From Alistipes sp. (GTDB lineage: Bacteria > Bacillota > Clostridia > Oscillospirales > Ruminococcaceae): 36,266 nucleotides of DNA. The stretch lies in assembly GCA_023667265.1 (NCBI GenBank), contig JAMPAJ010000009.1, forward strand, positions 1 to 36,266. Direction: 5' to 3'. Of this stretch, positions 1,309-36,168 are shown piece by piece. The position numbers and the translations under genes are program-made. Under the pieces are notes generated by a model, which did no database searches, was not told the DNA's origin, and saw nothing but the letters and a program-made list of their open reading frames with translations. The first letter of the stretch is position 1. Each line of letters begins with the position of its first letter.

Positions 1309-1809
1309 TCATAGATCAATATATTTTCCGAGTCTCGCCGTTGCGAACTGAGCGCAAAGCCCGGTAAATGCACCGGCAATGCAGCCTGAGATCAGAAGCA
1401 ATGGCAGATAGGCGATGACCGCCGTTGTACGCATAACAGCCAGAGCCGCTGCCGTCTGACCGATATTGTGCAGTATACCTCCGATTATGCTGCAAAGCCA
1501 GATATACCTCTCGTCGAGTATCTTCCGCATCAGGATCATTCCTGCAAGGCACAGCAGTCCTCCGCTCAGACTATATATCATCGCCGAAAGATTTCCGCCG
1601 AAAACCGAGCCGAGAAAAATACGCACCAGCAGTATCATCGCCGTTTCCCTTGCACGCAGGTGGTAAAGCCCATAAACCGTTATAATATTTGCAAGCCCGA
1701 GCTTTACTCCAGGGATCGGAACAAGATTCGGTATCCGCAGCTCCACGGTAAAAATAATCAGCGCAATTCCCGTCAGCAGCGACATATAGCAGATTTTTTT
1801 TACATTCAT
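1309..1809 (-). CDS. Gx transporter family / EetB-like integral membrane protein
   Basis: A 166-residue hydrophobic protein with about five membrane segments. The N-terminal motif (ELRIPNLVPIPGVKLGLANI) is typical of the family named heptaprenyl diphosphate synthase component I (PF07456, 'Gx transporter'). Members of this family next to ApbE and FMN-binding genes include EetB of the Listeria flavin-based extracellular electron transfer locus; that parallel is from established knowledge. The start overlaps the ApbE stop by four bases (ATGA), so translation is coupled. It probably helps assemble or serve the extracytosolic flavoprotein encoded upstream. A role in quinone or prenyl metabolism is the alternative. 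Confidence 0.78.
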   Translation of the reverse strand: MNVKKICYMSLLTGIALIIFTVELRIPNLVPIPGVKLGLANIITVYGLYHLRARETAMILLVRIFLGSVFGGNLSAMIYSLSGGLLCLAGMILMRKILDERYIWLCSIIGGILHNIGQTAAALAVMRTTAVIAYLPLLLISGCIAGAFTGLCAQFATARLGKYIDL

Positions 1810-2828: not shown

Positions 2829-2831
2829 ATT

Positions 2832-4193
2832 TTACCTTTTAGCCGATTTCAGAGCCTTTTCCACTGCCTTCATAATCGCGTTTGAGCTGTAAGTCGCGCC
2901 CGAGCAGGCATCGACCTGAGAGCTCTGGGAATTGAGTATCGCAGGTATAACCTGATTAGCCGCCGAGTCGAAGTATGAGGTGTCAAATTCGTTGGAATAG
3001 CCCGAAATATTGGTTATTACGTCATTTTCAATGGTGATCGTTATCGTGACTTCACCGTCATAGCCGAATGCGCTGGCAGTAAAATCACCGTTATTATAGA
3101 TATACTGAGGTTCTGGTTCGGGAGCAGGCTCAGGCTCGTGGTTCTCCTCCGGCTCCGGGGTTTCCTGCTCCTCCGGAGCTTCCTCCGGTGACTCTTCCTC
3201 CTCAGACTCAGCAGCCTCAGTCTCTGTTTCCTCGGACTCCTCTTCATCCTCAGATGTTGAAGTTGTTACCGTTTCCGCGGAAGCTGTTGTTGTCGTCGCA
3301 TCCGTAAGCGTCGTAAGACCCGACGCTGTTGATGTGACAGCGGCATTATCCGCAGAAGTCGTCGCCGTAGACGTAACTATGGCAAAGGATTTCGATGTGC
3401 TGCCTTCAACCGGAGAATCGCTTTTCTTCACCGGCTGCGCAGCCCAGATCGCCATAGCTATCCCGGCAGCAGCGATAACAGCCATAAGCACAGTCACAGG
3501 TGTTCTGAAGCTGAACTGCTTTTTTACCAGATACTTTCTGATCCTGAAAAAAGCATAGCCTATGAACACCAGACTGTACATAAATACGCTGAAAATATAT
3601 CCCTCTCTGCCCATTCTCGCAATCGGAACAGTCAGCAGCATAACGTGGACGTAGATCAGTCCGTAAAACAGGTATGCCGTCCGCTGCAGCCTCTTCCACA
3701 GCTTTGCGTTCATCTTTCTGCGTATCGCAGGGAACGAAAGTACAGTAAGCGGTATCATGATAACAAGCATAACAATAGTGCATATCGCCGCGCAGATCTG
3801 AGTACTGCTCATTCTGTCAGAATCGGTGAACAGCAGCTTGAAATATGTTCTGCCGTAGCCTATATTATGTCCGAGGGTAAGAATCGCTGTAAAAATACTT
3901 AATTCTCCACGGATAGGCATGAGCTTCTTTATAGCCGCCGAGCCGTTCGGAAGAGCGCCCATGATCATTACAACGCACCACAATGCCGTCGCCAGCGCGC
4001 CGCGTGTGAACAGCCCGATAACATAGTTATTGACAAACGCCGGCAGCTCGCGGGTATTGAAGGAGGGCAGCACAGCCATGACAACGGTCAGCAGAACAGC
4101 CGCCCCGTAAAAGACATACGGACACTTTTTCAAAGCGCCGCCGCAGAAAAACGCAAAAGCGAAAGCCACGATAAGGGCAATGAGGAATAACAT
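2832..4193 (-). CDS. Ferric-reductase-like membrane protein with C-terminal FMN-binding domain
   Basis: A 453-residue, three-part protein. Residues 1-250 hold about six membrane helices with a YedZ/MsrQ-like motif (LWKRLQRTAY then YVHVMLL). His109 and His183 are plausible haem b ligands. Residues ~255-370 form a Ser/Thr- and Glu/Pro-rich linker. Residues ~371-453 are an FMN_bind domain ending in DACSGATYSSNAI, the ApbE flavinylation motif, with Thr434 the expected FMN attachment site. Electrons may pass from quinol or a cytosolic donor through haem to covalent FMN outside the membrane. The gene is 12 bases after the Tp47-like gene and 3 before apbE. Confidence 0.85.
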   Translation of the reverse strand: MLFLIALIVAFAFAFFCGGALKKCPYVFYGAAVLLTVVMAVLPSFNTRELPAFVNNYVIGLFTRGALATALWCVVMIMGALPNGSAAIKKLMPIRGELSIFTAILTLGHNIGYGRTYFKLLFTDSDRMSSTQICAAICTIVMLVIMIPLTVLSFPAIRRKMNAKLWKRLQRTAYLFYGLIYVHVMLLTVPIARMGREGYIFSVFMYSLVFIGYAFFRIRKYLVKKQFSFRTPVTVLMAVIAAAGIAMAIWAAQPVKKSDSPVEGSTSKSFAIVTSTATTSADNAAVTSTASGLTTLTDATTTTASAETVTTSTSEDEEESEETETEAAESEEEESPEEAPEEQETPEPEENHEPEPAPEPEPQYIYNNGDFTASAFGYDGEVTITITIENDVITNISGYSNEFDTSYFDSAANQVIPAILNSQSSQVDACSGATYSSNAIMKAVEKALKSAKR

Positions 4194-4205
4194 TTCAGAC
4201 CACCC

Positions 4206-5693
4206 TTACTTCTTTCTTCTCTTGGAAATTACAGCCGCTGCGCCAGCCATAGCTGCGAAAGCAACAGGGATCGCTGCGCCTGCATCGCCTGTCTTAGGGC
4301 TGTTTGAATCGTTTGACTTAGCTGCAGCTGTAGTCTTGGCAGCTGTAGTTGTCTTGCTGGAGGACGAAGTTCCGTTGCCTGCCTTAGTTGTTGCAGCAGG
4401 TGCAGGAGCAGCTGTCGTAGCAGGAGCTTCTGTAGACCCGCCGGGAACATTAGCCTCCTCAGCAACATAGTCGACCATGATCTTTTTAATGATATAATTG
4501 TCGCAGCTGAACTCAACTGTGTATGTAGTTTCGTCTACCAGCTCGCCGTATTCAACAGTAGTGCCAGCCTTGTTTGTAACGCTGCCCTTTACGATAGAAA
4601 CAGCATTGTTCTCCAGAGAAACAAATTCCGGATCAATGTCGTCGTCAGCCGGGTCAACGAATACAGGAGTAATGTATGTCAGAACAGGATTTCTTCCGCC
4701 TGTAGTGTGGTAAACCTTTACCTTGATATTCTCGCCGTCCTCGGGCAGACCGCTGAGCACAAGAGAATTGCCCTTGAACGAAGCTGTAACAGCGCCTGTG
4801 TAAACCTCAGCTACATCTGTGCTGAACGCATAGTCGTAAACATAATTCTCGTACGCAGGAACTTCGCCGTCAGTCAGGTCGGTGTCCTTTGCAGAGCAGT
4901 AGAAGCGGACATTTGTGAGCTTCTTTCCGTCAAGACCGGGAGTTGAAGCAACCTTCCATGCGATATCGCTGTATGACCAGATCTGATCCAGATGATACAG
5001 ACCCTTTGACGTGCCGTCTTCAGCTGTGATTACCATAGCGTTGACGATCTTGTCGGAAGCATTCTCAGCAGCAGCAATGTCGATCTGAATATCGCCCCAG
5101 TTTGTGCCGTATGAAACGGGAACTTCGATATTTCCGCCGTTTACTGCGCTTGTCTTGCCTGTTGTAAATGATGTTCCGTCAAGAACCAGATAGTTTTCAG
5201 GCTCGCTGTCGAGAACATAGTAGGAATATGCAGGCGCTTCTGTCAGAGCCTGGTAGCCCTGGAGAGTGCTTGTTGAAGTCTGACCTCTTCCGAGAGTTGC
5301 TGTAGTAACTGTGGAATCAGCTGTGATCTCAGTTCCGCCAAGAGCCTTTACAGCGTCGAGACTGTCAGCCTTTACAGCCCAAGTTACGCCCTGCACCTTA
5401 GAATTTGTATCCTTACCTGTAGCAACAGCGTTGCCCTCAGCGTCAGTACCGGCAGTTGTGCCTGAGTGGTAAGCGCCGCCGGTTTTACCGTAATTTCCGG
5501 TTTTATTTGTTGCGGAGGAAACGGCATCGACATCGCAGATGTCGGCAGCGTCAGCGCCGTAGAAAGCGCTGTAGGGCACGTTCATGAGAACATAGCCGCT
5601 GAACGAGCTGTCTTCTGCAAAGGCGGCAGCGGGAACGACTGACGCAGCCATAGCCATAGCCGAGACAATACCGAGCATTTTTGTTTTCTTCAT
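4206..5693 (-). CDS. Secreted Tp47-domain-like protein with cell-wall sorting signal
   Basis: A 495-residue secreted protein. It has a signal peptide (cleavage near residue 26), then GYVLMNVPYSAFYGAD and DVDAVSSATNKT, which resemble the first domain of Treponema Tp47 and its gut Clostridia relatives. Beta-rich repeats follow, then a Thr/Ala/Ser-rich linker (~420-462). The C-terminus has an SPKTGD sorting motif, a hydrophobic segment and a KRRKK tail, indicating sortase anchoring. Residues 56-62 (DAVSSAT) fit the loose ApbE target pattern D-x-x-[S/T]-x-A-T, so this protein could itself be flavinylated at Thr62; that is inference. It is the first gene of the operon with the reductase and apbE. 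The Tp47 assignment is from pattern memory; the function is unknown. Confidence 0.65.
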   Translation of the reverse strand: MKKTKMLGIVSAMAMAASVVPAAAFAEDSSFSGYVLMNVPYSAFYGADAADICDVDAVSSATNKTGNYGKTGGAYHSGTTAGTDAEGNAVATGKDTNSKVQGVTWAVKADSLDAVKALGGTEITADSTVTTATLGRGQTSTSTLQGYQALTEAPAYSYYVLDSEPENYLVLDGTSFTTGKTSAVNGGNIEVPVSYGTNWGDIQIDIAAAENASDKIVNAMVITAEDGTSKGLYHLDQIWSYSDIAWKVASTPGLDGKKLTNVRFYCSAKDTDLTDGEVPAYENYVYDYAFSTDVAEVYTGAVTASFKGNSLVLSGLPEDGENIKVKVYHTTGGRNPVLTYITPVFVDPADDDIDPEFVSLENNAVSIVKGSVTNKAGTTVEYGELVDETTYTVEFSCDNYIIKKIMVDYVAEEANVPGGSTEAPATTAAPAPAATTKAGNGTSSSSKTTTAAKTTAAAKSNDSNSPKTGDAGAAIPVAFAAMAGAAAVISKRRKK

Positions 5694-20057: not shown

Positions 20058-22532
20058 TTATGATTTTTTCTGACTTTTTGTATTGAGCGCCCTGACGGAA
20101 TTGAGGATCAGCAGCATTGCCGTTCCGGAGTCCGCAAAAACAGCCAGCCACATATTCGGGTGACCAAGAAGTCCCAAGATAAGTACTACAGCCTTTATCG
20201 CAAGGGCAAAAATGATGTTCTCATAGGAAATTCGCAGAGTCTTATCGGCAATTTTCTTTGCTGAAACAACAGATTCCGGCTCGCTGCTCATGAACACTGC
20301 ATCCGCAGCCTCGAGAGCCAGATCCGCTCCGGTCTGCATAGCGCCTCCGATATCCGCTCCTGCGAGAACAGGCGCGTCGTTTATGCCGTCGCCGACGAAC
20401 ATTACCGAGCCCTTTTCCTGTCGAATATTGTTCAGCTCCGCCAGCTTATCGTCAGGCATAAGTCCGCCTCTTACTGTGTCGAGACCAAGCTGTTTTCCCA
20501 CAGCTTCGGCATTTTCCGGCTTATCTCCGGTGAGCATAGCCGTGTGGATACCCATTGCTCTGAGCTCCGCAATGGCAGCTCCGGAGGTCGCCTTCACGGA
20601 ATCCGAAACCACGATTCTGCCATGGACTTTTCCATCCACAGCTACAAAAACTACGCTTCCCGTCGAAGTCTTAGGCAGCTTCGGCATGGAAATATTTTTC
20701 TCGGTCATCATTTTTTCACTGCCGCAGAAAATCTCCCTGCCTTCAAGAACCGCATACACGCCTCTTCCGGCTGCTTCACCTGATCTCTCTGGCTCGGAAA
20801 TAACTATATTCCGCGAATTACAATAATCTGCAATGCTCTTTGCAACAGGGTGTGACGACACGCTTTCACAGCTTCCGCATATCCTGAGAAGCTCAGCCTC
20901 ATCCATATCGCCGCAAAGCGCAATATCAGTTACAGAAAAGCTGCCGTTTGTGAGCGTTCCGGTTTTGTCGAAAATAACTGATTTTACCTTTGCAAGAGCC
21001 TCTATTGCATTTCCGCCCTTAAAGAGTATTCCAAGCTTTGAAGCTGCTCCGATGCCCGAAAAATAGGCAAGAGGCACACTGAGCACCAGTGCGCAGGGAC
21101 AGCTGATGACCAGGAAAGTGAGCGCTGAATATATCCATTTTGACGGATCGTGAGTTATCAGTGAGCCAAGAACAGCCGTCAGCAACGCAGCCGCAATGAC
21201 AAGGGGCGTATAGATTCTGGAAAATCTGGTAATAAAGCGGTCAATCTGAGGTTTTTCGGCGGTTGCGTCCTCAACAGCCTGAGCAATTTTGGAAATCATA
21301 GAATCAGCGGCGGCAGCAGTTGCACGAAGCGTTACCGTCTCCGCAAGATTTATGCAGCCGGACATAACGCAGTCGCCGGGCTGAATCCGCACTGGAACAG
21401 GCTCGCCGTTAACTGCTGATGTGTCGATTCTGGATTCGCCGGACTCAACAATACCGTCGGCAGCAATGCGCTCGCCTGCCTTGATACGAATAATATCGCC
21501 TATCTCAATTCTGTCCGCGTCCATTCTTACGAATTCGCCATTCCGCAGCACATCAGCCTCGTCTACACGGAGAGACGCGATGTCAGTGATCGCCTTTCGA
21601 CTCCGGGACACGGCAAAATCCTCAAAAAGCTCGCCTATGCGGAAGAAAAGAACGACGCCCACAGCCTCGGCGTACTCACCGAGAATAAATGCACCTATAG
21701 TAGCGATGGTCATGAGAAAATTCTCGTCGAAAATATTTCCCTTTGAAACGTTTTTCACCGTCGCGATCAGAACGTTATATCCCATAAGCAGATATGCAGC
21801 TATGTACAGTGCAAGGTAAACAGGGAAAATATGCACCGTATGCTGAACTATCAGCGCGCCTGCGAAGAGCAGAACCCCTGCAATGAGCATAAACAGCGGC
21901 ATTTTTGAACTGTCGCTGCGCTCATGGGAATGGTGGTCGTGTTCATGACATCCACAATGGTCATCATGGCAGTGTTCATGATGCTCGTGATCGCCGCAGT
22001 GGCAGTCCTCATCATGGCAATGTCCGTGCTCTTGCTTATGTTCGTGATGCTCATGTCCAGCCGCTCCCATGGGGACGATCTCCACGCCTGCTTCAATTTT
22101 TCCGGCAAGCTCGTTTATCTTCTCCAGCAGCTCATCGGAAAGCTCTCCGCTTATCTTGATTTTCCGCATCGGGAAATTAAGCACAGCCTTTTCGACTTCG
22201 TCAAGACGGTTTATTGCTTCCTCGATTTTGCCGCCGCAGTGTGCGCAGCCGAGATTTTTTACCTCGTAGGTTTTCTCCGTATGACGGTGTTCATGGTGAT
22301 GCTCGCTGCCCTTTGCGCCAACGGGGACGATCTCCACACCTGCTTCAATTTTTCCGGCAAGCTCGTTTATCTTCTCCAGCAGCTCATCGGAAAGCTCTCC
22401 GCTTATCTTGATTTTCCGCATCGGGAAATTAAGCACAGCCTTTTCGACTTCGTCAAGACGGTTTATTGCTTCCTCGATTTTGCCGCCGCAGTGTGCGCAG
22501 CCGAGATTTTTTATCTCATAAGTTTTTTCCAT
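20058..22532 (-). CDS. Zinc/cadmium-translocating P1B-type ATPase with duplicated metal-binding domain
   Basis: An 824-residue metal pump of the ZntA/CadA type. Two nearly identical heavy-metal-associated domains open it, each with GCAHC (Cys12/15 and Cys96/99). A strongly His/Asp-rich stretch follows, then the membrane and catalytic regions: SCPCALVLSVPLA, DKTGTLT, SSHPVAKSIA and GDGINDAPVL. The C-terminal helix motif FADSGTAMLLILNSVRAL fits Zn/Cd rather than Cu pumps. The start at 22532 (MEKTYEIKN) is chosen because AGGAGTG precedes it; the upstream ATG at 22550 lies inside the operator. It is probably repressed by an ArsR-family regulator encoded elsewhere and induced by excess metal. Confidence 0.94.
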   Translation of the reverse strand: MEKTYEIKNLGCAHCGGKIEEAINRLDEVEKAVLNFPMRKIKISGELSDELLEKINELAGKIEAGVEIVPVGAKGSEHHHEHRHTEKTYEVKNLGCAHCGGKIEEAINRLDEVEKAVLNFPMRKIKISGELSDELLEKINELAGKIEAGVEIVPMGAAGHEHHEHKQEHGHCHDEDCHCGDHEHHEHCHDDHCGCHEHDHHSHERSDSSKMPLFMLIAGVLLFAGALIVQHTVHIFPVYLALYIAAYLLMGYNVLIATVKNVSKGNIFDENFLMTIATIGAFILGEYAEAVGVVLFFRIGELFEDFAVSRSRKAITDIASLRVDEADVLRNGEFVRMDADRIEIGDIIRIKAGERIAADGIVESGESRIDTSAVNGEPVPVRIQPGDCVMSGCINLAETVTLRATAAAADSMISKIAQAVEDATAEKPQIDRFITRFSRIYTPLVIAAALLTAVLGSLITHDPSKWIYSALTFLVISCPCALVLSVPLAYFSGIGAASKLGILFKGGNAIEALAKVKSVIFDKTGTLTNGSFSVTDIALCGDMDEAELLRICGSCESVSSHPVAKSIADYCNSRNIVISEPERSGEAAGRGVYAVLEGREIFCGSEKMMTEKNISMPKLPKTSTGSVVFVAVDGKVHGRIVVSDSVKATSGAAIAELRAMGIHTAMLTGDKPENAEAVGKQLGLDTVRGGLMPDDKLAELNNIRQEKGSVMFVGDGINDAPVLAGADIGGAMQTGADLALEAADAVFMSSEPESVVSAKKIADKTLRISYENIIFALAIKAVVLILGLLGHPNMWLAVFADSGTAMLLILNSVRALNTKSQKKS
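22071..22532 (-). repeat. 252-base direct repeat encoding two metal-binding domains
   Basis: Two copies with a period of 252 bases (84 codons), about 22071-22280 and 22323-22532. They differ at only a few positions over roughly 200 bases. Synonymous positions are conserved too, so the duplication is recent or kept alike by gene conversion. Confidence 0.9.
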
Positions 22533-22546
22533 TAGTGACACTCCTG

Positions 22547-22570
22547 ACATATGAATATTTGTTCATATGT
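22547..22570 (-). promoter_or_regulatory. ArsR/SmtB-type operator
   Basis: A 9-6-9 perfect inverted repeat (ACATATGAA, six bases, TTCATATGT). It is close to the ATATGAACAAATATTCAT operators of CadC/CzrA/SmtB repressors. It sits between the -10 element and the ATPase start, where binding would block transcription. Confidence 0.85.
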
Positions 22571-28011: not shown

Positions 28012-29145
28012 TCATATGCTATCGTACACATAATTTTTAATATGCTCCAATTCAGACCTTATAGCTTTTCTTTTGAAAAATACTCCTCTGACTAATCTGA
28101 AAAACCAGCCTACAGGAAGAAGCAGTCTGTTCTTATAAAAAAATGGAAAATATTTCTTATAAAACTCCAATGACGGAAAAATTCTATTCCATATGTATCT
28201 GAATTTTGAGAAACAGCCTGCTTGCTCCTTTAATTTTTTCACGCGTTTATTAACCATGTTTTTTTCCGTTCCATATGTTCCGGAAAAAAGGTAATATTCC
28301 AGCATATCTTTTTCGCTGTCTGATAACGATTCACATTTGGTGTCATTAAAAAGCTTCACGCATAATTCACGGGACTGACGTTCAAATTCCGATATTCCAA
28401 GAATATCTGTCTGCTGCGCAATATAGTCCCAATTCAAATACTTTCCCTTTTTCTCACAAAACACAAAACGATCTAAAAGCGAGCGCAGACCTGTACCACG
28501 ACCGCTGTAATGCTTATATTCGTGAACTGTCATATAAACATAAAAATCTTCGTCTGTAAAATGATAAGCACAATTTTTCTCTGCATCCTTTATAAGGCGT
28601 TTCTTGATATCTGAGTAATAATTGCAGAACTGCTCATCAGCTGTCCTTCCGATCAGACTCGTGTGCATCTCGAAATTATACACCGGCGGCTTTATATATG
28701 TATCGTGGTGACACTTTCCGATACTTTCGACAGTATATCCGCTTTTTTTCATGAAATGCAGCACGCTGTCCTGGTAGGAACGATCATAGAGTATATCAAT
28801 ATCAGCCATCTGGCGCATACCGATTTTGGGGTAAAGCTCCTTCAGAACCGAACCTTTCAAGGGCATATGCCATATTCGATTCTGTTCAAAAAAATTACAT
28901 ATTCTTTTCATTTCAGCATCAAGAAGAATATTTTTTCGTATGGCTTTCGACTTCGCTTCAATGAAGCTTCTGTTTGAGATCCCCGCCGATTCCAACGCCG
29001 TACATACAAGCGATGTCAAGCTGTGAAACTGACACATCTGAAATAATTTATCATAATCAATTTGAGCAATATGCTCCGGATCCGGATTTTCCTCTTTTAA
29101 CGCACATACGGATAAATGCAGCATATCATAGCTTGTCTTTTTCAT
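28012..29145 (-). CDS. PF14907-type nucleotidyltransferase of the peptide cluster
   Basis: A 377-residue cytosolic protein. Residues ~92-120 carry MPLKGSVLKELYPKIG and RQMADIDILY: the GS motif (Ser99) and the two metal-binding aspartates (Asp115, Asp117) of the uncharacterised nucleotidyltransferase family NTP_transf_5. Such genes occur in several peptide-modification clusters, including kinase-containing lasso peptide clusters, where they are thought to add a nucleotide or other group to a phosphorylated peptide. Here it is the last gene and overlaps the ABC exporter gene by 20 bases. The C-terminus is strongly basic (KKYFPFFYKNRLLL). Substrate and product are unknown. Confidence 0.82.
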   Translation of the reverse strand: MKKTSYDMLHLSVCALKEENPDPEHIAQIDYDKLFQMCQFHSLTSLVCTALESAGISNRSFIEAKSKAIRKNILLDAEMKRICNFFEQNRIWHMPLKGSVLKELYPKIGMRQMADIDILYDRSYQDSVLHFMKKSGYTVESIGKCHHDTYIKPPVYNFEMHTSLIGRTADEQFCNYYSDIKKRLIKDAEKNCAYHFTDEDFYVYMTVHEYKHYSGRGTGLRSLLDRFVFCEKKGKYLNWDYIAQQTDILGISEFERQSRELCVKLFNDTKCESLSDSEKDMLEYYLFSGTYGTEKNMVNKRVKKLKEQAGCFSKFRYIWNRIFPSLEFYKKYFPFFYKNRLLLPVGWFFRLVRGVFFKRKAIRSELEHIKNYVYDSI

Positions 29146-30835
29146 TTTTCACCTCAGTTTCTATTCCGTTTTCTGTCATTTTCATAATTTTATCACAAAT
29201 ATCCAATGCCGCAGGACGGTGCGTTACTATCAACACGGTTTTATCTGTCATACAGCGCAGATTTTCAAGTAGTTTTTTCTCCGTATATTCATCCAGCGCG
29301 CTTGTTGATTCATCAAGCAGCAGGATCGGATTGCCTGATAATACAGCTCTCGCAACGGCAAGTCTCTGCGTCTGACCTTCCGAAAGTCCCGAACCTCTTT
29401 CGCCCAACACCGCATCAAGACCTTTATCAAGAGCTTGTACAAACTCATAGGAGCATGATATTTTCAAGGCTTTTTTTATGGCGTCTTCACTCGGCGTCTC
29501 AGATTCGCTTCCAAAAGACAGAACATCGCGTACAGTGCCGAAAACAAGGTGATTTTCCTGCGGAACATATGCGAAAAGTCTGCTCCAGCGGCTTGTAAGC
29601 GTTTCTTTTTCTCCGTTGTTTTTTATTAAAGAAATATTTCCGCTTTCCAGGGGATACAAGCACATCAGAATTTTCAGAAGCGTAGATTTTCCGCAGCCTG
29701 AATTACCTGTGAAAGCAATAAATTCGCCCTTTTTAATTTGCAGATCAACATTGCTGAGCACAGTGAAGCCTTCGCGGCTCGGGTAAGAAAAGCTCACGTT
29801 TTTCAATACGATTTCCGCCAACTCTTCGTTGTAAAATTGATTTACTTCGGAACTGGAGATCCTGTCCTCCGGACAATCGTCAGCAAAATTTTCAATCTCC
29901 ATCAGGCGTTCCGCACTTGCAGCCATAGCATAAAATTTAGGGAAATATCCTGTTATATTGGCAAACGGCGACTGTATCTGGGAAATCAATTGTAAAATCG
30001 CCGTAAGCGTTCCGTATGATATCGCTCCTTTTAAAATGCCTGTTCCGCAATAAGCGAGTCCAAGCAAATACATTCCGTTCATTGCAAATGAAAATCCCGC
30101 ATTGCACAGATTTGAAAAACGATTTCTTTGCAGACGCGCCTCACGATGTGCCGACATTTTTTCTTCCGCCTCTTTTTCAACCTGATTTTCAGCGGAAAAA
30201 GAGCGTACGATCATCAGATCTCCAAGATATTCCTGCATGAATACTCGCAGCTCTCCGTCTTTTTCCTGAACATTCCTGTGCATTTTTTTCAGAGATCTTC
30301 GGAATATGTATGTTAGGAAAATCATTATCATTCCGCCGGGAAAAAGAATATATGCAAATTCTGGCTGCAGGACAATGATCATTGCCAGCGCACCGGACAT
30401 TTTCACCATCATTCCTAAAACATTCGGCAGTATCTCAGTTACTCCGTTCGCACATACAACAGTGTCGGAGGTAAGACGATTCATCCATTCTCCGGAGTGA
30501 ACGGCAGTCACAGAGGCAAAGCTTTTTCTCAGCAGCTCCGAAAACAGCTTTTTTTTCAGAACATTTTCGACCGCCGAACGCGTTTGCTCCTCATACCGGC
30601 GAAGCAGTACACGGAACAGGATCTGAATTACGGAAATTGATATAAGAAGCAAAAGAGATCCGGCGAAGCCTGTACGGTCACGCGACACAGCGGCGTCGAT
30701 AACGCTGCGAAGCATCAATGCAAAAAGGACGCTGCTAAATCCGAGAAGCGCCTGGAGCATCGTGAGCAATATAATACCGTTTTTTCGTTTGCCTATGACT
30801 CTGTACAGCCACTTTACAAAAGAAGATCGTTTCAT
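29126..30835 (-). CDS. ABC exporter of the peptide cluster
   Basis: A 569-residue half-transporter: six membrane helices (~1-310), then an ATPase domain with Walker A FTGNSGCGKST, signature GLSEGQTQR, Walker B ILLLDESTSALDE and a THRPAA H-loop. All catalytic residues are intact, so it should work as a homodimer. It lacks the N-terminal C39 peptidase found in double-glycine peptide exporters, so leader removal must be done by another enzyme, plausibly the S26-type peptidase encoded just before it. Its ATG overlaps that gene's stop. It likely exports the modified product of the 36-residue peptide. Confidence 0.88.
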   Translation of the reverse strand: MKRSSFVKWLYRVIGKRKNGIILLTMLQALLGFSSVLFALMLRSVIDAAVSRDRTGFAGSLLLLISISVIQILFRVLLRRYEEQTRSAVENVLKKKLFSELLRKSFASVTAVHSGEWMNRLTSDTVVCANGVTEILPNVLGMMVKMSGALAMIIVLQPEFAYILFPGGMIMIFLTYIFRRSLKKMHRNVQEKDGELRVFMQEYLGDLMIVRSFSAENQVEKEAEEKMSAHREARLQRNRFSNLCNAGFSFAMNGMYLLGLAYCGTGILKGAISYGTLTAILQLISQIQSPFANITGYFPKFYAMAASAERLMEIENFADDCPEDRISSSEVNQFYNEELAEIVLKNVSFSYPSREGFTVLSNVDLQIKKGEFIAFTGNSGCGKSTLLKILMCLYPLESGNISLIKNNGEKETLTSRWSRLFAYVPQENHLVFGTVRDVLSFGSESETPSEDAIKKALKISCSYEFVQALDKGLDAVLGERGSGLSEGQTQRLAVARAVLSGNPILLLDESTSALDEYTEKKLLENLRCMTDKTVLIVTHRPAALDICDKIMKMTENGIETEVKNEKDKL

Positions 30836-31260
30836 TTCATCAGCCTTTTTAAATATTTTTTTACACGAAGAATGAACGCACGAACATAAAAAAAGTCACA
30901 TCGCAAATGCACATACAAACGATATTTTTTATCCTTTACCGATATTGTTTTTCCGTCGCGCACTATTCCTGTCAGCACCCCGATAATATGTCTGTCGGTA
31001 ATTCCATATTCTTTGTTCCAGCGATTGTCGCCGCAGATAACGTAATCATTTTTCCGCACCTTCAGAATACGGTGAAGAACATACTGTCCGGAATCTCTCT
31101 TATACAACGGAACGTCGTATTTTTTAAGTCTGCCATTTACCTTTTCAATAATGAGCAGATCGCGGTTCTGGCGAATTATCGGCATCATACTGTCCCCTAC
31201 ATTTGTATAGATCAATTTGCCTGTCCTTGTGATAACCTCTTCAAAAGATGATTTATTCAT
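30832..31260 (-). CDS. S24/S26-type signal-peptidase-like serine protease
   Basis: A 142-residue protein. GDSMMP holds the nucleophile serine of the signal peptidase fold. YVLHRI places a histidine where bacterial SPase I has its lysine, as in Sec11/archaeal-type S26B peptidases. GDNRWNKEYG is the conserved GDN box. It lacks an N-terminal membrane anchor; the basic C-terminal end (FILRVKKYLKRLMK) may touch the membrane. It probably cleaves the leader of the adjacent precursor peptide or the lipoprotein. The ATG at 31260 overlaps the PqqD stop by eight bases; a TTG at 31272 is the alternative start. Confidence 0.82.
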   Translation of the reverse strand: MNKSSFEEVITRTGKLIYTNVGDSMMPIIRQNRDLLIIEKVNGRLKKYDVPLYKRDSGQYVLHRILKVRKNDYVICGDNRWNKEYGITDRHIIGVLTGIVRDGKTISVKDKKYRLYVHLRCDFFYVRAFILRVKKYLKRLMK

Positions 31261-31513
31261 TGATAGCGCCAATACTGCGGAGCGTACTCAAAATCTTTTT
31301 CAGATCAGCCGAAATGCGTTCTTCAGGAGCGTCATATTTTTCAGTCATTTTTTTAACGATTTCATCCTCAGTGACGTCATCTTTCAGACATTCTACAATA
31401 AAGGCAGCCGTTTTATTGCTGCGTACAAGTCCGCTGAAGCTCGTGCTGCCGTCAGATACCATTATCTGCTCTCCGTCCATTTCGTGTGTAATAAAGCCTT
31501 CCTTCAGCTTCAT
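31253..31513 (-). CDS. PqqD-like peptide recognition protein (RRE)
   Basis: An 86-residue protein of the PqqD family (PF05402). It has an N-terminal beta strand region (FITHEMDGEQIMVSDGS), NKTAAFIVECLKDDVTEDEI, and a C-terminal helix pair ending in LRSIGAINE. These domains bind leader peptides of RiPP precursors and present them to modifying enzymes; in lasso clusters the B1 protein does this by gripping a YxxP motif. The ATG at 31513 is preferred over 31522 because AAAGGA sits eight bases upstream; the earlier ATG abuts that site and overlaps the kinase stop. Confidence 0.88.
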   Translation of the reverse strand: MKLKEGFITHEMDGEQIMVSDGSTSFSGLVRSNKTAAFIVECLKDDVTEDEIVKKMTEKYDAPEERISADLKKILSTLRSIGAINE

Positions 31514-31518
31514 AAAAA

Positions 31519-32250
31519 TCATCCTTTCATTGCGTTATATGCGGTCTCTGCCGCCTCAATATCCATATTACAGCCCAATTTGTACAGAGCAATATTATCC
31601 GAAAGCTTATCCAGGAGTTTCAATGTCCTTAACATCCCCGAGGAATCGTTCGGACGGTATGTCTGCTGCAAAAGCATTGGATAGGCAGAGGTTTTTGAAA
31701 TTCGTTCAATTATATTTTGCTCTGATCTTGTAAGAATACAAATTGCTTTCAGCGGAACTGATATATTGCTGCTCAGATGATGCTTGCCGTCCCATGGAGT
31801 ACCGTGCACAACAGCTCCATTTTCCGTGATCTGCAAAAGCGGCTTATCGTCGTTTATCATTACTGCGCTGCTGCCTAAATACTCTCTCCATAGCCGTGTA
31901 TGAGTTGATTTACCCGTGCCGCTTTTTGCTGTGAATAAATAGCCTGCTCCGTCTACAGCTATTGCCGAACCGTGGAATAAAAGTGTGCCATACTCCGTCA
32001 TTGTCTCTGCAATTTTACGATATACCGCCAATGTTTCAAGATAGCTGTCTGAAAAATTTCTTACCCTTATCCCATTTTTTTCATCTTCCAAAGCCGATTT
32101 TCTTCGTTCATAGTCAATATCCGACCGGGAGATAACTATTGAGATTTCCTCGCTGCCGCTGCATTCATACTCACGGCACATATCATGAATTTCACTGTAA
32201 ACGGAATCTATTCCTATTATTTTTCCGCCTATTTTAAATGTATTCCGCAT
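31519..32250 (-). CDS. HPr kinase-like peptide kinase
   Basis: A 243-residue protein with the HprK C-terminal fold: LLFHGSAIAVDGAGYLF, then a P-loop AKSGTGKST (Lys114), INDDKPLL (Asp134/135) and GTPWDGKHHL. HPr serine is the classical substrate, but relatives lacking the HprK N-terminal domain and sitting beside PqqD proteins phosphorylate lasso-type peptides. That context applies here: PqqD-like protein next door, peptide gene 500 bases upstream. The 36-residue peptide offers Thr22, Thr23, Ser24 and Thr33 as possible sites. A GAGGTGAATT ribosome site overlaps the lipoprotein stop. Confidence 0.85.
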   Translation of the reverse strand: MRNTFKIGGKIIGIDSVYSEIHDMCREYECSGSEEISIVISRSDIDYERRKSALEDEKNGIRVRNFSDSYLETLAVYRKIAETMTEYGTLLFHGSAIAVDGAGYLFTAKSGTGKSTHTRLWREYLGSSAVMINDDKPLLQITENGAVVHGTPWDGKHHLSSNISVPLKAICILTRSEQNIIERISKTSAYPMLLQQTYRPNDSSGMLRTLKLLDKLSDNIALYKLGCNMDIEAAETAYNAMKG

Positions 32251-32253
32251 AAT

Positions 32254-32682
32254 TCACCTCACGGGCACAAATGGCAGCTCTATCACGTCGTCATTGACAG
32301 CAGCCGTTGTTGCTTCTGTTTTTGAGGAAGCGCTTACGGAGGTGGTGACGCTGATGTCTGATCCCTGATCCTTCTCATTTATTATCGGCAGCTCACCCTG
32401 CTCCGTTTTATCCGAAAAAACATTTTCCCGCACTTCATCATCATGGGACTTTGTAAAAGGCTCATCATGATCTGTAGCAGCGGCAGACGTCGGGCTGTCA
32501 TTTACAGCTGTCGTATTTTTTTCTGCAAAGGAATCCTGATCTCCGGTTTTCTCCGACCCATCCAGCCTATCTTCTGTCACAACAGCGGATATTATATCAG
32601 AGCTGCTGTCCTTATCCAAATCGCCATTGCAGGCTGTAAGAAAAAGTGTTGATATAATAAAAATAACAAGTATTTTTTTCAT
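32254..32682 (-). CDS. Small acidic Ser/Thr-rich lipoprotein of unknown function
   Basis: A 142-residue protein with a clear lipoprotein signal (FLTACNGD, Cys18). The mature part is low-complexity, rich in Asp, Glu, Ser and Thr, with no recognisable domain. It ends in VNDDVIELPFVPVR, a sharp switch to hydrophobic residues. It lies between the precursor peptide and the kinase and abuts the kinase ribosome site, so it is part of the operon. It could be an immunity or anchoring protein, or a second substrate of the modification enzymes through its C-terminus; both are speculation. Confidence 0.75.
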   Translation of the reverse strand: MKKILVIFIISTLFLTACNGDLDKDSSSDIISAVVTEDRLDGSEKTGDQDSFAEKNTTAVNDSPTSAAATDHDEPFTKSHDDEVRENVFSDKTEQGELPIINEKDQGSDISVTTSVSASSKTEATTAAVNDDVIELPFVPVR

Positions 32683-32723
32683 GATCGCTCCTTTGAGCCT
32701 GAACAGGCTTAGTTATGGAAACA

Positions 32724-32746
32724 GACGCCGCTTGCATAACGGCGTC
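32724..32746 (-). terminator. Hairpin between peptide and lipoprotein genes
   Basis: A 7-base-pair GC-rich stem (32724-32730 with 32740-32746) followed on the minus strand by TGTTTCC. It may be a weak attenuator that lets the peptide gene be expressed more than the downstream genes, or an mRNA stabiliser. Confidence 0.5.
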
Positions 32747-32762
32747 CGCTTCATTGTTACGT

Positions 32763-32873
32763 TCACATTACGGGGGTTTCGTTATCGTCCGGAATAATAC
32801 CGCTTGTAGTAATAACGTCCTCGCACTCGAACCGGATAACTTCCATTTCCGGTACTACGTATGTTTCTCTCAT
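32763..32873 (-). CDS. 36-residue putative RiPP precursor peptide
   Basis: A short gene with a near-ideal GGAGGTGA ribosome site six bases before the ATG. The product starts MRETYVVPEMEVIRFECED, continues VITTSG, and ends IIPDDNETPVM. Tyr5-x-x-Pro8-x-Met10 with a Phe at 15 resembles the YxxPxL leader motif that PqqD-type proteins bind in lasso peptide precursors. The tail after Gly25 (11 residues, acidic, one Thr) would be the core. It lies 14 bases after the toroid protein gene and upstream of the kinase, PqqD, protease, exporter and nucleotidyltransferase genes. It has a single Cys17 and no Lys. Precursor status is inference from size, motif and context. Confidence 0.72.
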   Translation of the reverse strand: MRETYVVPEMEVIRFECEDVITTSGIIPDDNETPVM

Positions 32874-32887
32874 CGCTCTCACCTCCA

Positions 32888-35398
32888 TTAGTTCTTATAT
32901 GCGTCTGCTGCCTTCTCGTACAGATACAGAGCCTTTACAAGATTTTTAAGGTTCTCGTCTGCGGAGTCGCTTTTCAGAACTGCATATGCGTAACTCATCG
33001 GACTATATGAAATAGTATAGTCGCCTATTGTCACATTCTGAACCTCATCAAGCTTTCCTGCCGGAATATCGGTGATTTCCTTGTAGTAACAGCCGTCCTT
33101 CTCGCTGAACGCATACGAGTCGGTCTTAGCGCCCTTTGCCGCCTTGAAATAATGACGTACAGATGTATTTGACTCAAGAACAAGGCTTGAACCGTAATAC
33201 TCTATGCCCTCGGGTAAATCGCCGTTTTCCTTTATTTCATAAGCTGACAGAACCTTTTCTGTAACCTTGTTCATGTCGGAAGTAGCAGCAGAATTTTTAC
33301 CGCTGAAATATGCCTCTGCATAGTCTCCGTAGTTTGTCATTGCCTCAACAAGCTCCTTAGCCTCGCTTGTGTAGTCGCCATTAACTAATTCGTCTGCGTA
33401 TTCCTCTACAGAATAATCGTACTTGCTGCCGACCGCAGAACCGCTTCCTGAGAACATCTGAGCATTTATAGAGTCAGCCATTTCCTTTGCAGCAACCTCG
33501 CAGGAGAATACATAATATGTTGTATTATCAACTACAGTTTCCTTTGCGTCGCTTACATAAACGCGTGAAACCTCTCCGTTTGGCAGCTCAAACTGCATAT
33601 ACGCGTTCTTATCATTGATTACGGATTCGTCAAGAGTCATGTAGAAGTTAACTCCGATATTTCCGCTGAGGCTTATGGATGCGCCGCCGAATTTTACAGG
33701 AGAAACAGCTTCAAACTCGACATCAGACATATCATAAAGAGAAGTCTGACCATTCATCAGGCGGTTATATGAAACAAGAGCGTAAGCAGCCTGATCTGTT
33801 GCCATACCGTTTCCGCCATCGCCTGCAATGTGTGAGAACGTTCTGTTATCGCTGTTGTAGAAGGAAAGAAGTGCATCAACTGCGGAATTGCCGTTCTTGA
33901 TAAATCTTGCGTCTGTATCGGGGTTGATGCCGAGAGCAGTACACGCAACGATGACCTGGGCGATACTTTCAGCATTTACAGAACCCCATGATGCGTAACC
34001 GCCTGTTTCTGTCTGGAGAGAAGAAAGAGCGTTTACAGCCTTGTCAAGAGCAGCCTTTACATCGCTGTCGTCAGTGTATCTTGCAAGAGCCTGAATCGTC
34101 ATTGCAGTCATATCAGGATCGGCAGAAGATCCGGACAATGCCCAGCCGCCGTCGGGAGTCTGCTTATCAAGGATATAGTCAATACACTGCTGGCGGATAG
34201 TGCTGTCAGCTGTCTGATAATCGTTTGTATCAAGCGCGATCAAAGCAAATACCGGTCCATTGATGCCCTGTTTCTTTATCCAGTTAAAATCGTTATACGG
34301 CGCAATAAGATTCCAGTCGCCTACCTGATCAGCATTTTTTCCAAGTGCTGAAAGAGCAATGATGAGACGTGAATTTTCCGTAGACTTTACTCTGTGCAGC
34401 GCGCCGTTCATATTCATGCTTGCAGCTGTTGTGTTTACTGTTTCAACGATCCTGTCATAATAATCGCTGAAATATGCGTCATTTTTATCGAAATAGCCGC
34501 CTCGCGCAAGGCTGAGCACGCTCCATTCGCCTCCGCTTGTTCCGAAAGCAGGTACAGGAACGTCCATTGAAAGCTGCTCTAAAACACCGTCGAGAAGTTC
34601 TGAAACATCCTGTGCTGCAGCTTCTTTTTTAACGTTGATAGTATAGGCGCTTGTTTCACCGTCAGGATTCATGCTTTTGGAATCCTCATAATTACACTCA
34701 ACAACTATCTGTGTGCCGTCGGAAACAGGTACTCGCTTGGTTCTTTTATACTCCGTACCATCTGCTAATGTGCGAACCTGATAATTCTTGTTGCTTGCCG
34801 TAGGCGTTACAAAAATGCTGTCAACGTCAGAAGGAACAGTAAGCACATATTCGTGAGTATCTTTGTCAAAATCAGGAGAAAGCGTGCCATACTCAAAATC
34901 AAGAGCCTTGACTGTGGTATCATTGTTTCCCCAGCTTCCGCCTAAATCATCGCCGTATGCGCAGGTGTACATTACACGAATAAGGTCGCCGGCTTCAAGC
35001 TCGCCCTCTGCAACAGTGAAATTTCCGAAGCCTTCGTTGGTGAACCAATCGTTGAGCGTTCCCATCCAGCCGGACATAAATCCGCCGTCAAATTCGCCCA
35101 TATCGTTGATATACGAAATGTAGTTGCTCTCCGCGCCTACCTGTGTACCGCCTACAGATTCGATAGCTTCAACGATACAGCTCATCATTGTGGAATCTTC
35201 GTCAATGGTGATCCAGGTATCAACAAGCGTGCCATACCAGAACTGATCGTCCCAATATTCAGATTCAGGAGTGAACGTTGTGTTCTCTACGATAACGCGC
35301 ACCTGATTTTCGTGTTCATCCACAGCAAAAACGGCAAACGGAACAGCATTTGCAGTAAGCGCCATTGCTGTCAGAACACCTAAAAATTTGTTCTTCAT
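32888..35398 (-). CDS. Secreted transcobalamin/intrinsic factor-like protein (DUF4430 plus alpha/alpha toroid)
   Basis: An 836-residue exported protein. Residues 1-~25 are a signal peptide. ~62-148 is DUF4430 (GWMGTLNDWF, then LEAGDLIRVMYT), a domain like the beta domain of transcobalamin. ~165-257 is a cadherin-like beta sandwich (LSPDFDKDTHEYVLTVP). ~265-550 is an alpha/alpha toroid with prenyltransferase-type repeats (CIDYILDKQTPDGGW; VNALSSLQTETGGYASW). ~565-836 is an unrecognised repeat region beginning near GNIGVNFYM. Mammalian intrinsic factor pairs the same two folds in the opposite order to trap cobalamin between them. With a cobalamin riboswitch upstream, extracellular corrinoid binding is a strong inference. 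The start at 35398 follows AAAGGA; an ATG 18 bases upstream is possible. Confidence 0.83.
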   Translation of the reverse strand: MKNKFLGVLTAMALTANAVPFAVFAVDEHENQVRVIVENTTFTPESEYWDDQFWYGTLVDTWITIDEDSTMMSCIVEAIESVGGTQVGAESNYISYINDMGEFDGGFMSGWMGTLNDWFTNEGFGNFTVAEGELEAGDLIRVMYTCAYGDDLGGSWGNNDTTVKALDFEYGTLSPDFDKDTHEYVLTVPSDVDSIFVTPTASNKNYQVRTLADGTEYKRTKRVPVSDGTQIVVECNYEDSKSMNPDGETSAYTINVKKEAAAQDVSELLDGVLEQLSMDVPVPAFGTSGGEWSVLSLARGGYFDKNDAYFSDYYDRIVETVNTTAASMNMNGALHRVKSTENSRLIIALSALGKNADQVGDWNLIAPYNDFNWIKKQGINGPVFALIALDTNDYQTADSTIRQQCIDYILDKQTPDGGWALSGSSADPDMTAMTIQALARYTDDSDVKAALDKAVNALSSLQTETGGYASWGSVNAESIAQVIVACTALGINPDTDARFIKNGNSAVDALLSFYNSDNRTFSHIAGDGGNGMATDQAAYALVSYNRLMNGQTSLYDMSDVEFEAVSPVKFGGASISLSGNIGVNFYMTLDESVINDKNAYMQFELPNGEVSRVYVSDAKETVVDNTTYYVFSCEVAAKEMADSINAQMFSGSGSAVGSKYDYSVEEYADELVNGDYTSEAKELVEAMTNYGDYAEAYFSGKNSAATSDMNKVTEKVLSAYEIKENGDLPEGIEYYGSSLVLESNTSVRHYFKAAKGAKTDSYAFSEKDGCYYKEITDIPAGKLDEVQNVTIGDYTISYSPMSYAYAVLKSDSADENLKNLVKALYLYEKAADAYKN

Positions 35399-35412
35399 TT
35401 TTTTAATTCCTT

Positions 35413-35601
35413 TCATTTTTTCTTTGCTCTCGGCTCTTTCAGTCCGGCAGCTTCAAGAGCTCTTGGCCATGGACCGAGAAAAGCCTTGATACGAGAACGG
35501 GATGCCTCGTCGAAATCCTCCTTTTTCGGCAGTCTTTCGAGTTCTTCGTATTTGAGCTGGAGCTGTCTTATCGCCCATTGTTTTTTCTCCTCCGACGTCA
35601 T
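35413..35601 (-). CDS. 62-residue HNH-repeat (HARE)-like protein
   Basis: A small basic protein: MTSEEKKQWAIRQLQLKYEE, LPKKEDF, and FLGPWPRALEAAGLKEP. The last segment matches the FGSWxxALxAAGL hallmark of the homing-endonuclease-associated repeat (HNH_repeat, PF18780), a small DNA-binding helical module. No nuclease motif is present, so it is a stand-alone module. The start at 35601 is chosen because GGAGGTGAT lies just upstream; the frame is open to 35643 but that part belongs to the terminator. It is the first gene after the cobalamin riboswitch and its end abuts the toroid protein start region. Confidence 0.75.
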   Translation of the reverse strand: MTSEEKKQWAIRQLQLKYEELERLPKKEDFDEASRSRIKAFLGPWPRALEAAGLKEPRAKKK

Positions 35602-35619
35602 ATCATCACCTCCGGAAAT

Positions 35620-35650
35620 AAAAAACTCTCCCTGAAAAATCAAGGAGAGT
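35620..35650 (-). terminator. Terminator of the cobalamin riboswitch expression platform
   Basis: A 10-base stem (35641-35650 with 35625-35634, one mismatch) is followed on the minus strand by TTTTT. It lies between the aptamer and the first gene. Cobalamin binding should favour it and switch the operon off; low corrinoid should allow read-through. Confidence 0.85.
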
Positions 35651-35780
35651 ACAGACGATCATTCAAGCACAGCAAACAAAGCCATGGAAGTGTACTGATA
35701 AAAAAGAGCACACTGATCCAAAGCCTCTGAGGCGTGATAAATCGGCTGCACTCTTCTCACCAAAGTTATGTTACCTTAAA

Positions 35781-35973
35781 AGATACGGCAGGTCTCCTGA
35801 CTTATGATCTGCGATATATCGCAAAAAGAGAACCTTCTCAGGACGCGGCGCGCCCCAATGGCAAAATACTCTTACCCGGAAAAACCGGGTCAAATACAGT
35901 AATGGCGGTTGTTCAGGATTCAAACCTGATTCCCTTTTCATCTACTCAGCTTACAACTTTTCAAACCGTATCT
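35781..35973 (-). ncRNA. Cobalamin riboswitch aptamer
   Basis: On the minus strand the leader has GGGAATCAGGTTTGAATCC and, about 20 bases on, CCGCCATTACTGT. A GC-rich region follows, then the B12 box CAGGAGACCTGCC near the 3' side. The ends pair as an 8-base P1 helix (AGATACGG at 35966-35973 with CCGTATCT at 35781-35788). These are defining elements of the cobalamin riboswitch (RF00174). It controls the genes starting at 35601. The stretch 35651-35780 holds the expression platform, with a GCCTCAGAGGC palindrome and no gene. Confidence 0.96.
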
Positions 35974-36000
35974 TCTTATCCAAATATTAACTTTATAACT

Positions 36001-36168
36001 ATTATATCATATTATTTGCAAAATTGCAAGAGCCGCGGTAAATTTTTTTGTTCACATATATTTGCAGCGCGAAATTGCCAGCGTGGGCTCCCCGCTTATA
36101 CCATATAATTTGCAAAATTGCAAGAACCGCGGAAATTTTTTTGTTCGCATATATTTGCAGCGCGAAAT
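36001..36168 (-). promoter_or_regulatory. Tandem promoters with repeated upstream box, before the riboswitch
   Basis: Minus strand, proximal: TTGCAA (36024-36029), a 17-base spacer, TATAAT (36001-36006), with box GGCAATTTCGCG at 36068-36079. Distal: TTGCAA (36118-36123), a 17-base spacer, TATAAG (36095-36100), with a partial box at 36161-36168. The two units are a tandem duplication of about 70 bases with a 93-94 base period. From 36169 to the window end the sequence is AT-rich, with no gene visible. Confidence 0.7.

Follow-up and report, generated by a model that had tools for sequence, protein, structure and literature searches.

A Linear Polyphosphorylated Peptide-type cassette under a cobalamin riboswitch, and a possible role of such peptides in retaining secreted proteins at the cell surface

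On contig JAMPAJ010000009.1 (positions 1 to 36,266, the whole stretch analysed, hereafter the window; all coordinates below are window positions), a cobalamin riboswitch heads nine minus-strand genes. These genes join a secreted, intrinsic-factor-like protein to a 36-codon precursor peptide and a modification cassette of the Linear Polyphosphorylated Peptide (LPP) type, one of the ribosomally synthesized and post-translationally modified peptide (RiPP) systems. What is new here is that, judging by its homologues, the 36-residue peptide belongs to a family mostly encoded directly behind large secreted proteins. In related B12 operons, a shared C-terminal domain (CTD), the peptide and the cassette stand in the place of a dockerin and a cohesin. 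From these arrangements we infer that LPP peptides may well help to hold secreted proteins in place on the outside of the cell; in this operon, the protein so held would be a putative B12 scavenger, with the participation of a lipoprotein. We favour this reading, stopping just short of calling it probable.

The features of the operon, in the direction of transcription, are as follows (ORF, open reading frame; HMM, hidden Markov model; AF2 pLDDT, AlphaFold2 predicted local distance difference test score; RRE, RiPP recognition element).

36001..36029, minus strand: candidate sigma-70 promoter TTGCAA-17-TATAAT with TG, immediately 5' of the aptamer (consensus scan only)
35770..35985, minus strand: cobalamin riboswitch aptamer (Rfam RF00174, 76.7 bits, curated cut-off 31.5, E 2e-17)
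35625..35650, minus strand: terminator-like hairpin, the putative intrinsic terminator of the expression platform (11-pair stem and U run)
35413..35601, minus strand: small ORF of 62 residues with a homing-endonuclease-associated repeat (HNH_repeat; PF18780, 42 bits)
32888..35416, minus strand: secreted DUF4430/cadherin-like/alpha-alpha toroid protein with C-terminal CTD, candidate corrinoid binder
32891..33697, minus strand: CTD, about 269 residues, common to other peptide-partner proteins (blast/HMM; AF2 pLDDT 93.6)
32763..32873, minus strand: LPP-type precursor peptide MRETYVVPEMEVIRFECEDVITTSGIIPDDNETPVM, 36 codons (alignment A1 and 102-member alignment)
32718..32752, minus strand: 15-bp hairpin between the peptide and lipoprotein genes, no U run (-35.5 kcal/mol, z -4.2)
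32254..32682, minus strand: lipoprotein with low-complexity stalk and C-terminus ...VIELPFVPVR (lipobox pattern; near-identical C-terminus in relatives)
31519..32250, minus strand: HprK/ScmC-like kinase, LppK-like (family search; all matches below curated cut-offs)
31253..31522, minus strand: PqqD-family discrete RRE, LppB-like (PF05402, 49.5 bits)
30832..31260, minus strand: SipW/archaeal-type S26 leader peptidase, LppS-like (TIGR02228 below cut-off; S24/H63/D78 conserved in loci)
29126..30835, minus strand: MsbA-like ABC exporter, LppD-like (PF00664/PF00005)
28012..29145, minus strand: NTP_transf_5 nucleotidyltransferase, LppN-like (PF14907, 148.6 bits)

A first-pass annotation of the same DNA had described an operon under a B12 riboswitch that links an intrinsic-factor-like protein with a RiPP-like cassette, with riboswitch and terminator at the head of nine minus-strand genes and with the order peptide, lipoprotein, kinase, PqqD, S26 protease, exporter and nucleotidyltransferase. 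All of this was confirmed by Rfam, the hairpin, Pfam and NCBIfam (by sub-threshold matches for the kinase and S26), and the arrangement recurs in three relatives. The RF00174 score lies well above the curated cut-off, so the cobalamin riboswitch stands; its limit at 35973 does not, as the aptamer extends 12 bases further. The HNH_repeat ORF is the first gene of the operon, between riboswitch and toroid gene, and is kept at the equivalent place in L296, L305-L308 and L310-L315 (L, G and C numbers denote loci, genomes and contigs). At L316, an HNH_repeat-like ORF lies behind the energy-coupling factor (ECF) genes instead. The peptide gene begins 14 bases after the toroid stop codon, and its product matches no Pfam or NCBIfam family. 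The source genome (2.57 Mb, 45 contigs) holds one such kinase, one such peptide, one CTD protein (E 1e-8) and two cobalamin riboswitches. Since cassette, peptide and CTD are each the only one found there, the LPP system of this genome would serve the B12 protein alone.

LPP clusters were published in May 2026 (PMC13381572). According to the main text of that paper, LppB (the RRE) and LppS (SipW-like) jointly cleave the leader, LppK places several phosphates on Ser3 of the core, and the biological role of the peptides is given as unknown. The full LPP set of an HprK-like kinase, a discrete RRE, a SipW-like signal peptidase I, an MsbA-like ABC exporter and an NTP transferase is present in the window. 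PqqD, ABC and NTP_transf_5 exceed the Pfam cut-offs, and the kinase and S26 are recognized by sub-threshold matches plus conserved residues. The window order, A-(lipoprotein)-K-B-S-D-N, agrees with the sequence precursor, kinase, RRE, signal peptidase I, ABC exporter and NTP transferase of the lpp cluster of Paenibacillus alginolyticus. The window peptide has the YxxP leader motif (Y5-V-V-P8) and the conserved Ser near the leader end, at the core start (S24). S24 and H63 of the window S26 are 39 residues apart, as are S29 and H68 in LppS, and N36, Y63 and D73 of PqqD are in register with N33, Y60 and D70 of LppB. Of 123 kinase loci, 95 contain PqqD; its N is kept in 94 of them, its D in 86 and its Y in 72, with F instead in 19. 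By tblastn, 89 of the loci contain S26, with Ser24 in 89/89, His63 in 88/89, D78 in 88/89 and D89 in 66/89; either Asp could match LppS D93, and the Ser/His/Asp catalytic residues of signal peptidase I are all represented in the window S26. Because genomes and loci share ancestry and some loci entered the set twice (for example, L217 and L312), the p-values given below and the 123-locus counts overstate independence.

Given the same gene set, the same order and matching residues wherever these could be compared, we file the cassette as LPP-type, that is, as a known kind in a new setting, with phosphorylation predicted from PMC13381572 (main text). The differences from the LPP clusters described in that text are nevertheless clear. 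After YxxP, the window leader reads FxxEDVITTS where LPP has HQxIxFETxxS; against the full consensus YxxPxVLxHQxIxFETxxS, the YxxP fits, the middle differs and the Tyr-Ser distance is 19 instead of 18. The core of the window family is short and acidic, its precursors are scattered across the genome and paired with secreted, often CTD-bearing, proteins, the window lipoprotein has a core-like C-terminus, and the operon is under B12-riboswitch control. The first-pass statement that no peptide system of this kind had been described is thus outdated for the cassette, but it still applies to the riboswitch: our literature search, with subscription journals mostly beyond its reach, found no publication with an LPP-type cassette under a B12 riboswitch. 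The same search found one LPP paper, and none linking LPP to B12, secreted proteins or dockerins. The main text of PMC13381572, without its supplements, does not mention secreted, lipoprotein, cobalamin, Clostridi, Ruminococc or Oscillospir.

The peptide family (alignment A1) conserves Y5, F15, D19, I21 and S24; in 102 unique members, Tyr5 is present in 95, Pro8 in 70, Asp19 in 100 and Ser24 in 100. Among 297 genomes of the taxonomic family, the kinase is found in 46, the peptide in 32 and both in 29 (Fisher p 5e-25). Peptides are scattered within genomes (10 in G288, 6 in G246 and 5 in G226), with one kinase match listed in each. The fetched neighbourhoods contained 66 peptide ORFs, of which 63 were tested, two being set aside for a weak E-value and one at a contig edge. 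The gene upstream looks secreted in 39 cases and not in 11; in 8 it is truncated at a contig or fetch edge, and in 5 there is none in reach. With upstream genes of at least 300 aa, 36/41 look secreted, against 58/188 other ORFs of that size at the same loci (p 1e-11). The predictor is a crude hydropathy rule, and two (L048 and L161) of the 5 large partners that it calls not secreted look secreted by eye. The secreted-looking partners have a median length of 842 aa and a median gap to the peptide of 18 nt. Domains found in 47 partners are LRR_5 (10), InlB and Listeria repeats (6 each), transglutaminase (5), GH5 (2) and other surface-protein domains, and a papain domain also occurs among peptide-partner proteins; two, being a DNA ligase and a glycosyltransferase, clearly do not count as secreted partners. 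Peptide genes often end their unit, with a terminator-like site within 150 nt in 29/62 where about 0.5 would be expected from shuffling of single bases.

Public genomes scanned with the kinase alignment provided an independent set of 80 named loci (the best 80 of 583), which include Faecalibacterium prausnitzii, Kandleria vitulina, Coprococcus catus and Ruminococcus flavefaciens. The peptide is present in 35 of these 80 loci (40 ORFs), and a toroid gene in one, L217. Over both sets, there are 70 unique peptides with a partner of at least 300 aa, and 49 of those partners contain the CTD. A Synergistaceae contig from a metagenome-assembled genome (L293) carries four consecutive LPP-like precursors directly 5' of the kinase.

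The similarity between the window toroid protein and the other partners is confined to residues 575-842. The toroid domain was thereby ruled out as the source of the partner-to-partner matches, which sit in the C-terminal 270 residues. This CTD has no Pfam match. An iterated CTD profile matches 30/47 partners and 3/188 control ORFs (p 2e-22), and one of the three controls, L166, turned out to have a short peptide behind it as well. In most CTD partners, the domain lies at or near the C-terminus. Its model (AF2 pLDDT as listed) has two halves, each with strands and then helices, for which Foldseek and VIA-align give merely an Ig/Fn3-like resemblance. CTD proteins are found in 26/297 genomes of the family, and 21 of these 26 have the kinase too. 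When another 32 CTD ends were inspected, just three peptide-like ORFs were gained or corroborated (L198, L207 and L211). In two genomes with many CTD proteins, G113 and G117, a single peptide apiece was detected; the peptides there may have diverged, or the CTD may also work without a peptide.

The B12 operons of relatives were collected by a search of 125 genomes of the genus, from which 16 loci with the closest toroid homologues among the matches listed were fetched. The order toroid-CTD-peptide-lipoprotein-K-B-S-D-N is found in the window and at three of these loci: the second operon of L310 (G378), L311 (G402) and L312, identical to L217 (G405). It is therefore present in at least 4/125 genus genomes, with 60-62% identity over toroid and CTD. 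At L311 the peptide was read by frame, the toroid frame holds a stop and the contig ends before the riboswitch; L312 ends within the NTP transferase gene. A cobalamin riboswitch is seen in the other two of the three relatives, L310 and L312/L217 (87.8 bits at L217). The B12 link had initially seemed unique to the window, as toroid matches were listed for 57/297 genomes of the family, only the window's lay beside a peptide, and 49 other loci were riboswitch-free; this idea was ruled out by L217 and the genus search. Among 59 other peptide or kinase loci, some of which end close upstream, Rfam gives a cobalamin riboswitch at L217 only.

The toroid gene is followed by a cohesin gene in 13/16 of the relatives' loci fetched. 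Seven toroid-cohesin loci continue through both ECF genes (L305, L306, L307, L313, L314, L316 and the first operon of L310). A C-terminal dockerin was confirmed by Pfam in all three proteins checked, those of L307, the first operon of L310 and the source genome's own L053; no C-terminal dockerin (PF00404) was found by Pfam in the window toroid protein. Riboswitches are present in 9/12 of the relatives' loci scanned (10 sites; L316-L318 lie outside the scan), and at the three misses, L309, L311 and L315, the contig starts within or shortly before the operon. The genus thus has operons, mostly with a cobalamin riboswitch, that encode a toroid-dockerin protein, a separate small cohesin protein, a DUF4430 protein and an ECF transporter (L305, L306, L307, L313, L314, L316, L310:533-7840 and L053). 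These operons point to a cellulosome-like docking of a putative B12 scavenger, and our literature search found no paper on them.

The source genome has both kinds. Its second riboswitch (contig C42, L053) heads genes for a toroid-dockerin protein, a sub-cut-off cohesin, a DUF4430-type lipoprotein and an ECF-type transporter. The end of C42 and the end of the window contig (36000-36266) share a repeat with 87.5% identity over 168 bases. Because L310 carries both operons in tandem on one contig and the tail of an ECF gene directly precedes the riboswitch of L217, the two contigs are probably neighbours, the assembly having probably broken at the repeat between two adjacent B12 operons. The first 262 residues of the window toroid protein match those of the dockerin-type L304 and L296 at 82%. 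At E 1e-8, this front part matches nothing in L310, L311 and L312, whose CTDs are 56-57% identical to that of the window protein. In a tree built from 19 toroid domains, the window toroid nests within a group of dockerin-type genes (81% to L304, support 0.98), away from the three further CTD-type toroids. The window gene therefore looks chimeric, with a dockerin-type front and the CTD of another lineage. Either dockerin and cohesin gave way to CTD and LPP cassette on two or more occasions, or the C-terminal modules recombined, with a single exchange of the gene's front. In both scenarios, dockerin and CTD behave as modules that can stand in for each other on a single capture protein, and this interchangeability is our main ground for proposing a docking role of the LPP system.

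The lipoprotein provides a further lead. By a simple rule, a small exported ORF lies directly upstream of the kinase in 38/123 loci, and 24 of those 38 end in a P-hydrophobic motif, mostly ELPFVPV-like. This C-terminus recurs on lipoproteins or anchored stalk proteins beside the kinase in the window (32254-32682), L042, L214, L217, L310-L312 and others. Peptide cores often have similar ends (ELPFVPAE, ETPFVPI). LP or TP occurs in the last 12 residues of 23/49 peptides with a CTD partner and of 2/21 without (p 0.003), a modest and post hoc link, the best of three patterns tried after looking. The ELPFVP-like motif of peptides and lipoproteins is a possible common ligand of the CTD.

In the mechanism that we propose, scarce B12 would let transcription pass the riboswitch, and the cell would make the secreted toroid/DUF4430 corrinoid-capture protein ending in the CTD, together with its partner LPP precursor and the LPP machinery. 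PqqD would bind the YxxP leader, the kinase would phosphorylate the near-invariant S24 and the S26 protease would remove the leader by RRE-guided cleavage, the last two steps being modelled on the main text of PMC13381572. NTP_transf_5 may add a further group, and the ABC exporter would secrete the modified peptide. The exported phosphopeptide and the membrane-anchored stalk lipoprotein, with its similar motif ELPFVP, would then keep the CTD protein on the cell surface, a task that falls to the dockerin-cohesin pair in relatives. In a wider form, which we offer as a tentative possibility, the LPP phosphopeptides of Clostridia would constitute a genome-wide surface-attachment system. One cassette would mature many anchor peptides, each encoded behind its own secreted client, and peptide and stalk lipoprotein would dock the client's C-terminal domain; the sole client found here would be the corrinoid scavenger under the B12 riboswitch.

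Several observations weigh against retention at the surface, besides the modest LP/TP link. At E 0.01, 17/46 kinase genomes lack the peptide, and 45/80 public kinase loci have none in reach. The CTD is missing from 17/47 partners, and a peptide lies within 900 nt of 33/67 CTD proteins, about half; 5/6 CTD proteins in G117 and 7/8 in G113 have none. The ELPFVP-type lipoprotein is found at only 24/123 kinase loci by the simple rule. Known anchors are scarce in the 47 partners (dockerin 1, LPxTG 0, C-terminal transmembrane segment 0), which is weak evidence because secreted controls mostly lack them too (4, 0 and 3 of 58, respectively). Only one protein family shows the exchange with dockerin, and a transglutaminase family gave no dockerin form among the 4/125 genomes matched, in which not every C-terminus was fetched. 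Finally, a toroid fold does not by itself mark a protein as a B12 binder, and B12 binding and anchoring are both putative.

Other explanations were weighed against these data. The LPP product might be a diffusible signal or antimicrobial that shares transcripts with surface-protein genes for co-expression alone. The cores are highly variable, and the distribution of LPP clusters is patchy, its numerous gains and losses being a pattern typical of biological conflicts (PMC13381572, main text), yet this explanation, which we think unlikely, leaves unaccounted for the regular position behind large secreted proteins, the dockerin/cohesin exchange and the lipoproteins with a similar C-terminus. Tight pairing over short gaps and the place of the CTD at or near the C-terminus would also suit a peptide that serves the CTD protein solely as a chaperone or in maturation, perhaps as a folding clamp or an inhibitor of proteases, and anchors nothing. 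However, the partners without a CTD and the roughly half of CTD proteins without a peptide do not fit, and a chaperone that comes with its own exporter, kinase and NTP transferase would be elaborate; we consider this quite unlikely. The scarcity of the arrangement, with a toroid gene at one of the 80 public kinase loci and the whole order in at least four genus genomes, might mean that an LPP cassette landed behind a B12 gene by chance and that its B12 control is incidental. Such a coincidence is improbable, given that four genomes keep the same order at the identity stated above and that the source genome has its sole cassette, sole peptide and sole CTD found in this very place. The first-pass proposal that the peptide itself acts in corrinoid capture, as ligand, signal or competitor toxin, draws on the riboswitch shared by the window and two relatives, but it is very improbable because the homologues follow secreted proteins unrelated to B12 (LRR, transglutaminase, GH5, papain) and 58/59 other loci have no cobalamin riboswitch.

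With regard to transcription, the first-pass annotation had proposed all nine genes as a single unit without an obvious new promoter. The hairpin at 32752-32718 and hairpins of differing sequence at the equivalent site between peptide and lipoprotein genes in L310, L311 and L312 leave a uniform nine-gene transcript unassured, and the cassette may accordingly be expressed less than the toroid and peptide genes. A consensus scan gives promoter-like matches at 33042-33014, in the 3' end of the toroid gene (9/12), and at 32618-32591, inside the lipoprotein gene (10/12). Over 8.7 kb and both strands, there are 26 such matches against 17.5 +/- 3.9 in shuffles, none of them proven. As they are somewhat commoner than in shuffles, an internal promoter, for example at 32618-32591, may exist, and the absence of a new promoter was neither confirmed nor refuted.

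Elsewhere in the window, two groups of ORFs were named by eye. At 1806-5693 there are an ApbE-type-like ORF, an FMN-binding membrane protein-like ORF and a secreted protein with a C-terminal transmembrane segment, possibly for flavin-based extracellular electron transfer. A P-type metal ATPase at 20058-22550 has a pair of N-terminal metal-binding domains that are almost the same, with a His-rich stretch between them.

The pairing of LPP precursors with secreted proteins, the Pfam-less shared CTD and the natural dockerin/cohesin exchange give LPP peptides a concrete, testable role. If this role is true, RiPPs would join the known ways of fixing proteins to the Gram-positive cell surface, and it would explain how some Ruminococcus relatives hold a B12 scavenger.

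Among known systems, paeninodin-type lasso clusters share the HprK-like kinase, PqqD RRE, NTP transferase and ABC exporter with the window operon, which has an S26 protease instead of the lasso cyclase and B2 protease. Pfam finds neither a macrolactam cyclase (PF00733) nor a B2 protease among the nine genes, so the operon is not of the paeninodin type; PF00733 occurs in 8 places elsewhere in the source genome, 6 of them over the cut-off. A lasso peptide, considered from 'TSG' plus an acidic residue at position 7-9, was rejected, as the cluster has no cyclase and several cores (for example, L034 and L036) lack that residue by eye. With transcobalamin and intrinsic factor, the window protein shares both the alpha-alpha toroid and the DUF4430 domain, which occurs in TCN proteins (PMC4350170). 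Its domain order is reversed and it has an extra cadherin-like domain and the CTD; for the putative B12 binding, the riboswitch and the ECF operon homologues are context only. The BtuG and BtuH surface B12 lipoproteins of Bacteroides (PMC10404256, PMC8941943) resemble the window system in the surface capture of B12 by gut bacteria and differ in the proteins and the anchoring used. The closest parallel to the proposed role is the cellulosome-type cohesin-dockerin pair. No sequence relation to it was seen, and CTD and modified peptide take its place, but in both cases a C-terminal module of a secreted protein goes with a separately encoded partner, at the equivalent operon position in relatives, and the LPP system would, if our reading is true, be a RiPP-based counterpart of cohesin-dockerin or sortase anchoring.

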